A model generated the notes under the pieces. That model did no database searches. It was not told where the DNA came from and saw nothing but the letters and a program-made list of their open reading frames with translations. The translations under genes were made by a program, and so were the position numbers. A stretch of 52,126 nt of DNA, taken from positions 1 to 52,126 of the forward strand of contig JANQQW010000386.1 in the NCBI GenBank assembly GCA_028284885.1. Reading direction: 5' to 3'. Source of the stretch: Planctomycetaceae bacterium. Lineage in GTDB: Bacteria > Planctomycetota > Planctomycetia > Planctomycetales > Planctomycetaceae. This document shows positions 5,929 through 40,278 of this stretch, piece after piece (positions within the stretch are counted from its first letter, which is position 1; every line of letters begins with the position of its first letter).

Positions 5929-5962
5929 ACCACGAAAGACACGAAACTCACGAAACCAGCTG
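5929..5962 (+). repeat. 34-base ACCACGAAAGACACGAAAC repeat, copy 1
   Basis: This begins 34 bases after the topoisomerase A stop. A direct copy at 8053-8086 matches at 31 of 34 positions. Both copies lie in gaps of the split topoisomerase locus. Confidence 0.85.
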
Positions 5963-6024
5963 CGTTGCCACGCAACGCAGTCGCAGTCTTGCGACGATCA
6001 AGAACAGGGAGCACACGTTGGGTG

Positions 6025-6111
6025 CCATGCCTTGACGCCGTAGGCGAACAGGCAGGCAGTCCGGTCGTTCCGCCACGGCGTGCTTGTCCCGCTACGCGGT
6101 CAAGGCATGGC
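6025..6111. repeat. 87-base imperfect inverted repeat
   Basis: The arms 6025-6058 and 6078-6111 are each 34 bases and pair at 27 of 34 positions, including a perfect outer 13 (GCCATGCCTTGAC). The loop is 19 bases. The element lies between convergent genes and could fold into a long hairpin. The size and structure resemble a small palindromic mobile repeat, but no other copy is in this window. Confidence 0.7.
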
Positions 6112-6176
6112 CCCCGGCTTCGTACCCAGCGTTCGGCACTCTCACCAGTGCAACGACTCGGAACACTGTTCCGTCG

Positions 6177-36100: not shown

Positions 36101-36995
36101 GCGAGCCCCGGTCGCGAAGCGGCTTCGGCAGATTGCCGCTTGGCGGGCATGGATAGACGTGTCCGGGGCGGTCGCCGAGATTCGGACGGACGTCGTGTTC
36201 ACGCGGACGTGGGGCCGCACGCTGGTGGCGAGCATGCTCGAAGACTCCGTCGCCGAGTTCGATCTGGCGGGTAAAGAGACGTGGCGGGTGGAACTCGAGG
36301 ACGCCGACCGATGCTGGGGGATGGCGACTGGAGAGCGCGTGGTCAGTTCCTGGAACGCGTCCGCTCTAGTCGTCTACGCTCCCGGCGATGGACCGCCACG
36401 CGAGCTGTGGCGACTGAGGGAACGTTGCGAGGGGATCCCACTTCCCAACGGTGACATCCTCGTCCACGACCTGTGGCACGTCCGCCGTTACGACCGCACC
36501 GGGCGTGAACTCTGGAAGACCAGAGTCCTCTGGGAGGGCAAGTTGCGGCGTCCGCTCGACGTCGACATCCTCCCGAACGGCAACGTCCGGGTGCTCTTCA
36601 AGAAGGCTTTCAAGCCCGGGCCGGAGATTGCGGACACCGCCGTCGAGATGGACGAGAGCGGCCGGGTCGTTCGCGAACTGCCGTACGATCCGAAGGACAA
36701 ACTGCTCGCGCGGCTTCCGAACGGGAACGCACTCGTCCGCATCGAGGACACGAGTGGGGAGTGGCCAAGGGTGGGACGACGCATCGAGGAACGCGACCCG
36801 ACGGGCAAGGTCGTGTGGTCTTACACGAGCGAGAACCCGGTCCGATCAGCGCAGCGACTCCCGAACGGCGACACCCTCATCACGGGTGGCGCATCGACTC
36901 CGGTCTCGGCGATCAGCCCAGACGGCGAAACGGTCACCTGGACACTGAGGTCGATCTCCGATTGGTACGGACCGAACTGCGCCCATCAGTACTGA
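33123..36995 (+). CDS. Large exported PQQ-type beta-propeller and HEAT-like repeat protein
   Basis: A 1290-residue protein with an N-terminal signal peptide (MATCKSRLVCTLALLAIAGW, cleavage near VLVAQ). The start is TTG 33123 with AAGGG eight bases upstream. Residues about 20-280 are helical and TPR-like. A PQQ/BamB-like beta-propeller follows (about 310-760; GRDGISCREAETGRVLWEG, VTAYDAVTGRSLWSRP-type blades, VACLDATTGDPRWAV, FALDRRDGSLVWEA). Next is an alpha-helical HEAT-like region (about 800-1010; ASAASLLAREDRRALDRLV). A second propeller-like region ends the protein (VAEFDLAGKETWRVELED, YDRTGRELWKTR, EERDPTGKVVWSYTSE). Blades have the Trp-docking motif, which often binds quinones or acts only as scaffold. 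No cofactor residue can be assigned. Codon choice is visibly less GC-biased than in thrS next door. Confidence 0.75.
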   Translation: MATCKSRLVCTLALLAIAGWNAPVLVAQTDAPAPDDSGRLGRPEAAFPDAAPRFVDDTLARILLRLRAAAERDTNESILACQELLDGVAGVGPLAGNDRLRGFSDDVVGVDRSTRGSTYLRYGALRGTVERLQRSLDGDAYQLATEASAEALWNDFRRSRDVSRLRMLVDRYFNSSRGDDACVMLAALALDRGDPVEAYALLNRVRSEHPRPDIDQRSLRLRLLVAAARLGDVEEVRADWTNLDRDGLADRVPARVRRELRRVTSDEPPAAPQRGAWSSAAGTSDGRRHAPRIGDAVLPEDRLTEAWSVPLDTGDKSGSFDAIDVMPGWTQLKRSPVVNAVALDERIYLHGRDGISCREAETGRVLWEGRRLALGTEPMVKRFGAKQAALAWVSREPTDDELDRFSDRVQAEFSVHGDRVFVIESASALKLSSASLILTTQKRVRRNVLTAYDAVTGRSLWSRPADEARRDAGGFLGAPSAYNDLLLAPASFSGEVWLLGLDRETGETRWRTFVCDEPAGGASFWSPVRVVVEGSAACVLPGTGVVACLDATTGDPRWAVRYQRSLNLDIGREVRAKNPEPTFDFYGWERDTLIVTGRLLIVAPSDTERLFALDRRDGSLVWEASARPSPDSPRASLVLGATGNRLFVAGHDVLRQYRITDGEPIWETPLAGATGQGLVTPDAVYVPVRSTLAVVDPATGERRRSIEFVSGYGKPLGNLATDGKRLYAAGATRALALAPLDEELELLAKRIEEGNVAARLHRSILLLGLRRDDEAFGDLSAAAAALRAPLSESETAASILEVLDQSVFDEERPGRVLREIGGGGLARIPGLESEEQRNLVGSWQSVARDCLASISKKERSGAVREILAVATLANDVSIQNLAEQALLDTVTADDLPTLDAAIESSPASRTIAVHALSSKRLTGVDGITERLDALWKADDPVLRLASAASLLAREDRRALDRLVTLLESEDAEVRGRAVGRLWRATGQRLAFDARAPVAKRLRQIAAWRAWIDVSGAVAEIRTDVVFTRTWGRTLVASMLEDSVAEFDLAGKETWRVELEDADRCWGMATGERVVSSWNASALVVYAPGDGPPRELWRLRERCEGIPLPNGDILVHDLWHVRRYDRTGRELWKTRVLWEGKLRRPLDVDILPNGNVRVLFKKAFKPGPEIADTAVEMDESGRVVRELPYDPKDKLLARLPNGNALVRIEDTSGEWPRVGRRIEERDPTGKVVWSYTSENPVRSAQRLPNGDTLITGGASTPVSAISPDGETVTWTLRSISDWYGPNCAHQY

Positions 36996-37098
36996 GCCGT
37001 CTGAAGCTCAAGGGGTCGTGGTTCGTCGGTTGGCACTGGACCGCAACGTCCCAACGTTCGCTCGGCACAGCGTCGTCTCGGCAGCGACACGCTTGTGT

Positions 37099-37163
37099 CC
37101 GGCGCCACCAGGCGCCGGTGCTTCGCCGCCCACGGATGCCGGTCTGCACTGGCCGAGCCAGTG
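37099..37163. repeat. Two adjacent short palindromic hairpins
   Basis: A perfect 8-base-pair stem (37099-37106 with 37111-37118, CCGGCGCC arm, ACCA loop) is followed by a perfect 7-base-pair stem (37147-37153 with 37157-37163, CACTGGC arm, CGA loop). They lie about 105-170 bases after the propeller gene. They may terminate it, or be dispersed palindromic repeats. Confidence 0.55.
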
Positions 37164-37245
37164 GCGCCCTTCGAGCGAGACCGTCGTCCTGTGGCGCAGC
37201 TTTCTCGTGCGGGGTGATGGGCGAAGCCTCGACCGGGAGAGTGAC

Positions 37246-37785
37246 GTGGATCCGCAGGTCATGCTCGAGATTCAGAAGCTGCTCGGGGACGGGACCGAGG
37301 TTCGGCCCGAGTTGGACGTCAGTCGGAATCCCGATCTCTTCGTCGGGGCGAAGCCGCATCTGCCGCCGAAGGGGGGATGGACCAAGAAGCAGATGGTGCG
37401 GGTGGCTAAGAAGGCCCTGGAGGAGTTGGGGTGGCCGCTGACCTGCTACGGCTTCCTGGCGTACGCTGGCATCCGGTCGCCCACGCTGTACCGCGTCTAC
37501 CCGCGGGGCTTCCACGACCTGCTGGACGACGCCGGCATCGAGCCGGCCAAGCCGGGGTTGCCGGTGAAGTGGTCCGACGACCAACTGCTGGCCGACTATG
37601 GCCGCATCGCCGAGGAGTTGGGCCGGTACCCGACGGTCGTCGAACTCGACCAGATGGCCGAGGCCTCGCAGGCGACCTACCGCCTCCGCATCGGCCGCAA
37701 GGGACAGATCATCAAGCGGTACGAGGAGTGGGTGGCCGCCCGCACAGCCGAGAGCGACCCGGTGACGAATCTCTCCGGCGAGTGA
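37246..37785 (+). CDS. Protein with two homing-endonuclease-associated (HNH_repeat-like) helical repeats
   Basis: This 179-residue protein is read from GTG 37246, preceded by GGGAGA six to seven bases upstream; the frame is open back to 37018 but that part has no domain character. Two repeats of about 55 residues are visible, each opening with a Trp-Ser/Thr-Asp/Lys motif and a Gly-x-Pro turn: WTKKQMVRVAKKALEELG with an AGI end (about 45-98), and WSDDQLLADYGRIAEELGRY with PTVVEL (about 105-155). This is the pattern of DNA-binding repeats found beside HNH and LAGLIDADG endonucleases. No nuclease motif is present, so it may bind DNA only, or be a relic. A 93-base repeat begins two bases after its stop. 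Confidence 0.65.
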   Translation: MDPQVMLEIQKLLGDGTEVRPELDVSRNPDLFVGAKPHLPPKGGWTKKQMVRVAKKALEELGWPLTCYGFLAYAGIRSPTLYRVYPRGFHDLLDDAGIEPAKPGLPVKWSDDQLLADYGRIAEELGRYPTVVELDQMAEASQATYRLRIGRKGQIIKRYEEWVAARTAESDPVTNLSGE

Positions 37786-37786
37786 C

Positions 37787-37879
37787 CGAGGACTTGCGGA
37801 AGGCGGAGAGCACGTCGCCGGGCTTGTTGGCGTGTCTTCCGTTCGCGAGCATCATCGCCCCGCTCCTTGAAGTGCAGTG
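37787..37879 (+). repeat. 93-base direct repeat, copy A
   Basis: It matches 38647-38739 in the same orientation at 76 of 93 positions without gaps. The copy starts immediately after the stop of the helical-repeat gene. Together the two copies bracket the frameshifted gene at 38015-38573, 860 bases apart. Confidence 0.8.
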
Positions 37880-38014
37880 AAGTCAGGCTGGCGCCAACGG
37901 CCGTGATGCCGACTGTCACACCACGAAGCGGCGGGGTGGCGCTGGTGTGGCCGGTGTTCGGCGACAGTGGGGATCTCGACACCTGCGGGGAGCTCACCAT
38001 CATGGGGGACCGAC

Positions 38015-38573
38015 ATGGCCAAGCGGCCGATCGAGAACCCACCTTCGCCCCGATATCGATCGACGACCCGCTGGCGACGGCGACCAGATGGTCGAAGATC
38101 GCGGACGGGGGGGAGGTCACACGCCGACTGGTCGAAGTCGGTCCGGATCGACTCGAGTTCCGCGCCCCGTTGGGCGAACTGGTCCTCTGGGCAGTCGTTC
38201 TGGTCGTCGGCCTCGTGTGCCTCGCCAGTGTCGCGTGGTTCCCGGAGCATTCGTTCAAGCTGGTGTTGGGGGGCGGGGTCAGCGCGGTCGCCGGTCCGGC
38301 CTGTTCTGGATCGGCCGCGGCGAACGACGGGAGTCCGATCTGGACGGCCGCAGCGAGAAGATCGCCCGCCTCGACGACGTCCACGCAATCCAACTCGTCT
38401 CGCTGACGGGCCGTCGGAAGCGTCCGGTCTACGAGATCAACCTCGTCCTCGCCGACGGCTCGCGCATCGGCGTGACGAACGTACGGGATCGGGACGCCGT
38501 CGCAAGGGATGCCGAGTCACTGTCGGCCTTCCTCGGCAAACCGGTGTGGAGCGCTCTCGAAGAGCCGCCGTAG
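38015..38573 (+). pseudogene. Frameshifted small membrane-protein gene, read in three frames
   Basis: A conserved-looking protein is spread over three frames. The start (MAKRPIENPPSPRYRS, ATG 38015) is in one frame. The middle (SIDDPLATATRW to a membrane helix LVLWAVVLVVGLVCLASVAW) is in a second. The end (GLFWIGRGERRESDLDG to DVHAIQLVS, YEINLVLADGSR and SAFLGKPVWSALEEP) is in a third. Both steps go back one base in phase, as deletions of one or four bases would cause. The first falls in a tandem ATCG ATCG (38055-38062): adding one ATCG unit restores RYRSIDDP. The second is near 38293-38298, where one extra base would restore AVAGxGLFWIG. The intact product would be about 185 residues with one or two membrane helices and a cytoplasmic C-terminus. 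Sequencing error cannot be excluded. Confidence 0.75.
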
Positions 38574-38646
38574 GGGCATCCCCGGTCTCGGCCGCTCGAC
38601 GAGACGCATCGCTTCCGGTCCTGTCACAACGGACGAATTGCGACTG

Positions 38647-38739
38647 CGAGGACTCGCGGATCATGGGGAGCCCGTCGCCGGGGTTGTTGCCGTGTCTGCG
38701 GTTCGCGAGGATCATCGCTCGGCTCGATGAAGTGCAGCG
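38647..38739 (+). repeat. 93-base direct repeat, copy B
   Basis: It is 82% identical to 37787-37879. It ends 55 bases before the isocitrate dehydrogenase start chosen here. No terminal inverted repeats or transposase are seen, so it is not assigned to a known element. Confidence 0.8.
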
Positions 38740-38793
38740 CCGGCCGATTCGAGCGAGTCGCCAGGAACCGTGAGCAGTACAGGAGAGGCAGAC

Positions 38794-40278
38794 GTGGTCG
38801 ATGCAACGTTCGAGGAGCGGGTCATGCGGGGTGCGGTCGAGCCGGCCCCGATCGTGGTGGCCCCGGGTGACGGCATCGGGCCGGAGATCATGGGGGCGAC
38901 GCTGTCGATCCTGGAGGCGGCCGGGGCGTCCCTCGACCTGAAGCCGATCCGGGTCGGCGAGGCCGTGTACCACGCTGGGCACAGTTCCGGCATCGCCCCG
39001 GAGGCGTGGGACGACATCCGCGAGCGGAAGATCATCCTGAAGGGGCCGATCACCACTCCGCAGGGGGGCGGGGTGAAGAGCTTGAACGTGACCCTGCGGA
39101 AGACGCTGGGGCTGTTCGCAAACGTCCGGCCGTGCATCGCCTACGACCCGTACATCCCCGTGCGGCACCCCCACCTCGACGTCGTCATCGTCCGCGAGAA
39201 CGAGGAGGACCTCTACGCCGGCATCGAGCACCGACAGACCGACGAGGTCGTCCAGTGCCTGAAGCTGATCACGCGGCCGGGGTCCGAGAAGATCGTCCGG
39301 TTCGCCTTCGAGTACGCCCGCCGGCGGAACCGGAAGAAGATCACCTGCTTCGTGAAGGACAACATCATGAAGCTGACCGACGGCCTGTTCCGGTCGGTCT
39401 TCGAGGAGGTCGCCGCCGAGTACCCGGACCTCAAGGCGGACAGCATGATCGTGGACATCGGCATGGCCCGGCTGGCCAACGCGCCGGAGCTGTTCGACGT
39501 GGTCGTGCTCCCGAACCTGTACGGGGACATCGTCTCCGACATCGCCGCGGAGATCAGCGGCTCCGTCGGGCTCGCGCCGTCGGCGAACATCGGCGGCAAG
39601 TACGCCATGTTCGAGGCGATTCACGGCTCGGCGCCGGACATCGCCGGTCAGGACGTGGCCAACCCGAGCGGGCTCCTGCTCAGCGCGGTGAAGATGCTGG
39701 CCCACCTCGGACAGGGGGACGTCGCCGAGCGCATTCACAACGCGTGGATGGTCACGATCGAGGACGGCGTGCACACGGCCGACCTCCACCGGTCGGGGAC
39801 GAGCCAGCGGAAGGTGGGGACCCGCGGCTTCGCCGAGGCGGTGGTCGAGCGTCTCGGCGAGAAGCCGACGCACCTCCGGGTCATCTCCTACGCCAGCGAG
39901 ACGATGCCGAGCATCGAACCGGCACGGCGGCCGCGAGCCGAGAAGGCGTTGGTCGGCGTGGACGTCTTCGTGCACGACGGCGACTCGGACGCCGAGGAAC
40001 TGGCCGGGCAGCTTCAGGAGGCCGAGACCGAGGCCCTGCGACTCGTGATGATCACGAACCGTGGCGTGAAGGTCTGGCCGGACGGCTTCCCGGACACGTT
40101 CCACACGGACCACTGGCGTTGCCGGTTCCAGCCCGAGGCGTCGGGCGCGAGCGTGTCCCACGCGGACGTGGTCACGCTGTTGTCGCGTCTCGGCGAGAAG
40201 GGGATCGACTTCATCAAGACCGAACACCTCTGCACGTTCGACGGCCAACCCGGCTTCTCGCTCGGGCAGGGACAGTAG
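38794..40278 (+). CDS. icd: Isocitrate dehydrogenase, NADP-type, with C-terminal extension
   Basis: A TCA-cycle enzyme oxidising isocitrate to 2-oxoglutarate and CO2. The 494-residue product has GDGIGPEIM, KGPITTPQGGG with the substrate-binding loop, VRENEEDLYAGIEH, FVKDNIMKLTDGLF (active-site Lys) and MIVDIGMARLANAPELFDVVV with the Tyr-Gly-Asp metal segment LYGDIVSDI. The NADP region is IHGSAPDIAGQDVANP. After about residue 335 comes a roughly 150-residue tail (RVISYASETMPSIEPARRPR onward) like that of the longer Thermus-type IDH. GTG 38794 is preferred because AGGAG lies eight bases upstream; the in-frame GTG at 38770 would add eight residues. The gene follows the repeat-bracketed pseudogene and is transcribed alone. 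Confidence 0.9.
   Translation: MVDATFEERVMRGAVEPAPIVVAPGDGIGPEIMGATLSILEAAGASLDLKPIRVGEAVYHAGHSSGIAPEAWDDIRERKIILKGPITTPQGGGVKSLNVTLRKTLGLFANVRPCIAYDPYIPVRHPHLDVVIVRENEEDLYAGIEHRQTDEVVQCLKLITRPGSEKIVRFAFEYARRRNRKKITCFVKDNIMKLTDGLFRSVFEEVAAEYPDLKADSMIVDIGMARLANAPELFDVVVLPNLYGDIVSDIAAEISGSVGLAPSANIGGKYAMFEAIHGSAPDIAGQDVANPSGLLLSAVKMLAHLGQGDVAERIHNAWMVTIEDGVHTADLHRSGTSQRKVGTRGFAEAVVERLGEKPTHLRVISYASETMPSIEPARRPRAEKALVGVDVFVHDGDSDAEELAGQLQEAETEALRLVMITNRGVKVWPDGFPDTFHTDHWRCRFQPEASGASVSHADVVTLLSRLGEKGIDFIKTEHLCTFDGQPGFSLGQGQ

Follow-up and report, generated by a model that had tools for sequence, protein, structure and literature searches.

Background

Repeated intergenic sequences in bacterial genomes have several known origins. 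Direct repeats left at a single locus by an ancestral duplication occur as two diverged, non-coding copies that lie close together in the same orientation. Short interspersed repeats of the REP and MITE types are about 90 bp in size, carry terminal palindromes and are found at gene borders. Integron attC sites have conserved end motifs and form an end-to-end hairpin, and the target-site duplications of transposons are identical short repeats accompanied by a transposase.

Here we describe two direct repeats, A and B, in a 52,126-nucleotide stretch of DNA from a Planctomycetaceae bacterium (contig JANQQW010000386.1), referred to below as the window. In copy number, orientation, lack of coding content, divergence and proximity they are like locus-specific ancestral duplicates, but differ from these in having sharp edges and transversion-rich differences. 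Their size and their position at gene borders are also those of REP- or MITE-like repeats; however, no terminal palindrome is seen in A and B, the genome yielded two copies only and no mobilizing enzyme was found in the window. With attC sites they share the length range, the orientation and the placement of the first copy directly past a stop codon, whereas they have no end-to-end hairpin and, in the window, no array and no integrase that Pfam detects, and by eye lack the conserved end motifs. In contrast to target-site duplications, they are 82% identical over 91 nt and Pfam finds no transposase in the window.

Results and Discussion

A discrete repeat pair

On the + strand a PQQ_2 protein gene and an HNH_repeat gene precede copy A, the two copies enclose a PH-like gene that is read in two frames, and copy B is followed by the isocitrate dehydrogenase gene, icd (Table 1). 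The copies are in direct orientation and are spaced by ~860 bp. Their coordinates, 93-base length and ungapped identity, as given in a first-pass annotation of the window, were reproduced exactly, and a repeat finder returns the inner 91 nt of the pair with 16 differences (18% diverged). When the window is searched by BLAST with copy A, copy B is recovered at E = 3e-22 and all other matches have E values of 0.012 and up, as expected by chance. In 200 mononucleotide shuffles of positions 36501–40000, the best ungapped 93-mer match had a mean of 48.1 and a maximum of 53 of 93.

Table 1. Coordinates of the repeat copies and of the genes around them in the window.
Feature	Position	Strand	Description
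HNH_repeat (PF18780) protein gene	37207..37785; open frame from 36949, start uncertain	+	Pfam E 1.8e-6
Repeat copy A	37787..37879	+	Non-coding, directly 3' of HNH_repeat gene; 76/93 to copy B, ungapped
PH-like membrane protein gene, N-terminal part	38002..38300	+	First frame; Pfam none
PH-like gene, C-terminal part	38301..38573	+	Other frame; tblastn to L182, 31.5% over 92 positions, E 8e-9
Repeat copy B	38647..38739	+	Non-coding, just 5' of icd; 76/93 to copy A, ungapped
Isocitrate dehydrogenase gene (icd)	38794..40278; alternative start 38770	+	ORF; PF00180 and PF18324

Outside the repeats, the 40-nt left flanks of A and B have 6 bases in common and the 40-nt right flanks have 14, both at chance level. 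Since identity drops to chance beyond both edges, the duplicated unit is a discrete segment of ~91 bp rather than the remnant of a still-visible longer duplication. Of the 17 differences in the full 93 positions, 11 are transversions and 7 are C-G swaps, an excess that plain drift does not obviously produce.

The first base of copy A is the second one past the upstream TGA stop codon (37783–37785). The first-pass annotation had correctly placed it two bases past this stop, but its name for the upstream product, a helical-repeat protein, is better replaced by HNH_repeat. PF18780 is the homing-endonuclease-associated repeat, a repeat domain; no nuclease domain is matched by Pfam in this protein. 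Copy A ends 122 nt before the start of the PH-like gene, and the gap between copy B and icd is 30 or 54 nt, depending on the start chosen for icd, with both genes on the same strand as the repeats.

The enclosed gene

The gene between A and B had been reported as broken, and it is indeed read in two frames. We presume it to encode a small membrane protein of a PH-like type, a label that no Pfam match supplies. A distant homologue in a single frame is present in a genome of the same family (G006, L182:1765-2673); in two-sequence comparisons it matches the N-terminal part at 37% over 43 amino acids (E 5e-6) and the C-terminal part at 32% over 92 (E 6e-10). The C-terminal part is matched in three of 59 genomes, our own included, and the N-terminal part, compared with 34 loci, hits G006 only. 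The G006 locus carries PH-like genes in tandem (L182:1765-3162), one of them open in a single frame and the second split over two frames, as is the gene between A and B. This family seems prone to decay, and so the frameshift need not be tied to the repeats. A PHROGs search with the HNH_repeat and PH-like pieces returned nothing.

Genomic neighborhood

Simple codon scoring called 34 ORFs in the window, all of which were run through Pfam. The earlier statement that no transposase is present holds for these ORFs, and no integrase, recombinase, phage or other mobile-element enzyme was found among them. Pfam domains indicate homologues of gyrA, gyrB, thrS, icd, a peptide release factor and ribosomal protein L31, and the families matched include PSCyt1 (Planctomycete cytochrome C), DUF1552 and DUF1559, of which the last two are presumably planctomycete-linked; together they fit a planctomycete genome. 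GC content along the window ranges from 0.646 to 0.707 in 2-kb steps. The lack of a mobile-element gene and the level GC argue against an island, and the 18% divergence of A and B appears large for a recent target duplication. The proposal of an island scar is therefore poorly supported in these surroundings of gyrA-, gyrB-, thrS- and icd-type genes, and the locus may serve as a calibration case: a conspicuous repeat pair flanking a broken gene need not signal a mobile island. In relatives, the neighboring proteins that were tried were not found beside icd in the fetched icd loci. Neither these loci nor longer stretches contain the A/B element, and their sole match is at chance level (E 0.25).

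Elsewhere in the window, 3' of the gyrA homologue, a 96-nt segment (6020–6115) can form a strong hairpin (-60 kcal/mol) and has similar copies on other contigs, at L229, L241, L242, L253 and L255. Next to it is a short hairpin (5959–5982), similar copies of which occur on L231, L233, L248 and L255.

Search for further copies

A search for other genomic copies, as suggested in the first-pass annotation, was run with a sequence model of A and B over the 6.47-Mb draft genome, which consists of 399 contigs in whose gaps copies could be missed. A and B each score 101 bits and the next place scores 17 bits, so that these two alone stand out genome-wide. A first genome-wide BLAST search with the repeat gave 40 places at E <= 10, with loci for 30 of them; 17 other loci of this genome that reappeared in local BLAST show chance identity beyond the matched core. 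In 825 kb of the genome A and B hit nothing but each other.

BLAST matches were obtained in six of 59 genomes, 58 of them from relatives, at E <= 0.01 and in 12 of 397 genomes of the class at E <= 0.001 (own genome included in both), the non-self matches being short cores that lack full-length similarity. Together these searches gave 15 distinct non-self loci. Twelve were compared in full and have chance identity outside the core, and the remaining three (L037, L040 and L046) have no match to the A+B model better than E 0.1. The model gave four non-self hits below E = 0.001 in 170 family genomes (own included), all weak and judged to be chance. Pattern scans found no copy in 84,980 species (exact pattern) or in viral contigs, and BLAST of the whole A–B interval against plasmids and phages returned nothing. 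A looser pattern with 17 fixed bases found 83 stretches in the 84,980 species, of which the best shares 28 of 71 bases outside the pattern with A or B. Two of these stretches, from Accumulibacter, have nhmmer E values of 0.001 and 0.01, which are unremarkable because the loci were selected by that same pattern.

We reject a dispersed repeat, as no credible third copy came up in the draft genome, the relatives, the species scan, the viral contigs, the plasmids or the phages. The domesticated repeat that had been proposed would imply a dispersed family, and does not fit a genome in which A and B alone stand out.

Within a 1.41-Mb sample that covers about 22% of the genome and includes the window, 24 rows of local direct pairs are detected under fixed limits. 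Some of these are codon-periodic and others derive from repeats with several places; three rows have just two places in the sample, namely a 51-nt pair, a 53-nt pair and A/B. Two-place pairs of this type are thus uncommon in the genome yet not unique.

Coding potential and RNA structure

Over the aligned 91 nt, the three codon positions have 5, 4 and 7 of the 16 mismatches, with no codon rhythm. A single + frame of each copy was compared with Pfam: copy B has no match and copy A has a sub-threshold match to Transglut_core3 alone (E 0.18, or 0.007 for the longer ORF). A reverse-strand reading of B as a widespread planctomycete peptide was not confirmed in 294 genomes (own included), which yielded six weak non-self matches, the best with an E value of 1.3e-4 and an internal stop.

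The single copies of A and B fold no better than dinucleotide shuffles on either strand (z -0.65 to 0.85), their folds differ from each other, and neither shows an end-to-end palindrome or hairpin or terminal inverted repeats. A consensus fold of the + strand contains 25 pairs, none broken and two kept through changes on both sides. For this alignment of two sequences, the consensus energy was reached by 233 and 247 of 500 null alignments and the number of double changes by 125 and 153. The - strand energy was likewise reached by 165 and 240 of 500 null alignments of two sequences, whereas its three double changes were reached by just 23 and 33. On an alignment of two sequences, a shared RNA fold of A and B is no more than a candidate. 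Rfam has no match anywhere in the window at gathering thresholds, and the sole promoter-like match (37976–38003) is outside both repeats.

Origin of the repeat pair

We favor, with about even confidence, the reading that A and B are diverged copies of one discrete non-coding intergenic segment of ~91 bp that was duplicated once, long ago, across ~860 bp. The lack of a third copy in the collections searched points to such an old local duplication rather than to a mobile element. The duplication would likely have occurred by template switching during repair or replication, and the same event may have brought the PH-like gene to its site between the HNH_repeat gene and icd, or rearranged it there. 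Subsequently both copies would have drifted and the enclosed gene decayed. This age and this route are inferred, as is the absence of a present function; the copies are probably functionless. An old two-copy intergenic duplication is the simplest reading, and a fairly ordinary one. However, sharp edges at about 91 bp and a location at the borders of genes would be just as compatible with a unit that is functional or mobile. The consensus fold with no broken pairs, its three double changes on the - strand, seldom reached by null alignments of two sequences, and the abundance of transversions also run counter to local duplication, which accounts neither for the discrete size of the copies nor for the many C-G swaps.

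An unlikely, if conceivable, alternative is that a family of short interspersed intergenic repeats, of the REP or MITE type, has left A and B as its final remnants. Several such families exist in this genome, with spacings of 0.65–1.7 kb and some of them hairpin-capable (L242, L248, L253, L267 and the repeat at 6020–6115 of the window). However, about 4 to 11 places were counted for each of the first four in the 1.41-Mb sample, in contrast to two for A/B in the whole draft, and the missing palindrome and the absence of other hits in the 825 kb also argue against membership in such a family.

Somewhat more doubtful is a pair of duplicated regulatory leaders, one preceding the PH-like gene and the other preceding icd. 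The location of each copy 5' of a same-strand gene is consistent with leaders, as is the intact consensus fold that can be drawn. This fold, however, does not exceed null alignments, the only promoter-like match lies elsewhere, Rfam recognizes nothing and the icd loci of relatives lack the element.

We regard it as improbable that the PH-like gene arrived in an inserted unit bounded by A and B, whether these are a target duplication, att sites or the borders of an integron cassette. The direct orientation, the single enclosed gene and the placement of copy A next to the upstream stop codon would suit such a unit, but Pfam detects no recombinase in the window, the copies have diverged by 18%, no other copies stand out and no hairpin of the attC type spans the repeats.

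Direct repeats near HNH_repeat genes

In this genome PF18780 is matched ten times, at eight loci, and 11 of 59 genomes (own included) contain a match. Three of the eight loci of this genome have a direct-repeat copy that starts within 6 nt of the HNH_repeat stop codon (window, +2; C158, -4; C4, +6), with a partner 0.86 to 1.9 kb further on and a repeat sequence that differs from locus to locus. Local direct repeats near other HNH_repeat genes of the genome are present at L255:6423-8440, L330:2619-3480 and L331:2874-4858. As a control we used 202 full 6-kb windows from the 1.41 Mb, 20 of which held a non-periodic direct pair under the fixed limits; removal of two HNH_repeat windows (window:36001 and L255:6001), with the negative C162 locus kept, left 18 of 200. 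HNH_repeat loci scored six of eight, or five of eight once C71 was dropped, where a 531-nt overlapping repeat lies about 3.4 kb from the gene end. In this comparison, devised post hoc, 5/8 against 18/200 gives a Fisher p of 0.0005, and exclusion of the window locus (4/7) gives p = 0.003, likewise post hoc. Among the pairs counted, that at C92 is just 71% identical and may be coding, that at C130 is on the 5' side, and the C158 repeat shares a dispersed hairpin. Relatives did not replicate the association under the same limits, with a pair at one of 19 HNH loci and at three of 46 control loci; the 19 loci represent 18 places (L310 and L319 overlap), and overlapping duplicates and one place with no locus were excluded.

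We consider it very unlikely that HNH_repeat genes in this lineage and the repeats at their 3' borders belong together as units, with a protein that might recognize or create such repeats by homing-like copying. Intergenic repeats in compact genomes presumably tend to abut gene ends, so placement at the HNH_repeat stop alone is weak evidence. Should the association be borne out by closed genomes, planctomycetes would appear to have a protein family that shapes its genomic environment. In one relative (G013), an HNH_repeat gene is flanked by an 87-nt direct repeat with 85% identity (L319:1-87 and 1884-1970), which by eye seems to contain an inner palindrome.

Similarity to tssC

The top match of the A+B model outside the window is in frame within tssC, the type VI sheath gene, of G027 (29 bits; 59/93 to B and 54/93 to A), and a second weak DNA match, at L045 of G160, is also in tssC, in another part some 40 codons upstream of the G027 motif. 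Descent of both A and B from a tssC fragment is possible but highly unlikely: the two matches imply different registers, the tssC genes of the genome itself fit A/B worse than that of G027 (36 to 48 of 93), three other loci at 22 to 25 bits did not score as tssC, and a tssC motif profile over 2.0 million positions ranks A 8th and B 4th (counting A, B and the genuine L045 tssC), which is unremarkable because tssC was chosen as the top match of a large search. The VipB/tssC comparison set comprised thirty loci, own ones included. The genome itself has three genes of the VipB/tssC type (G000:C380:31263-33696 and G000:C373:3390-4298), two of them in tandem, which suggests a type VI secretion or related contractile system.
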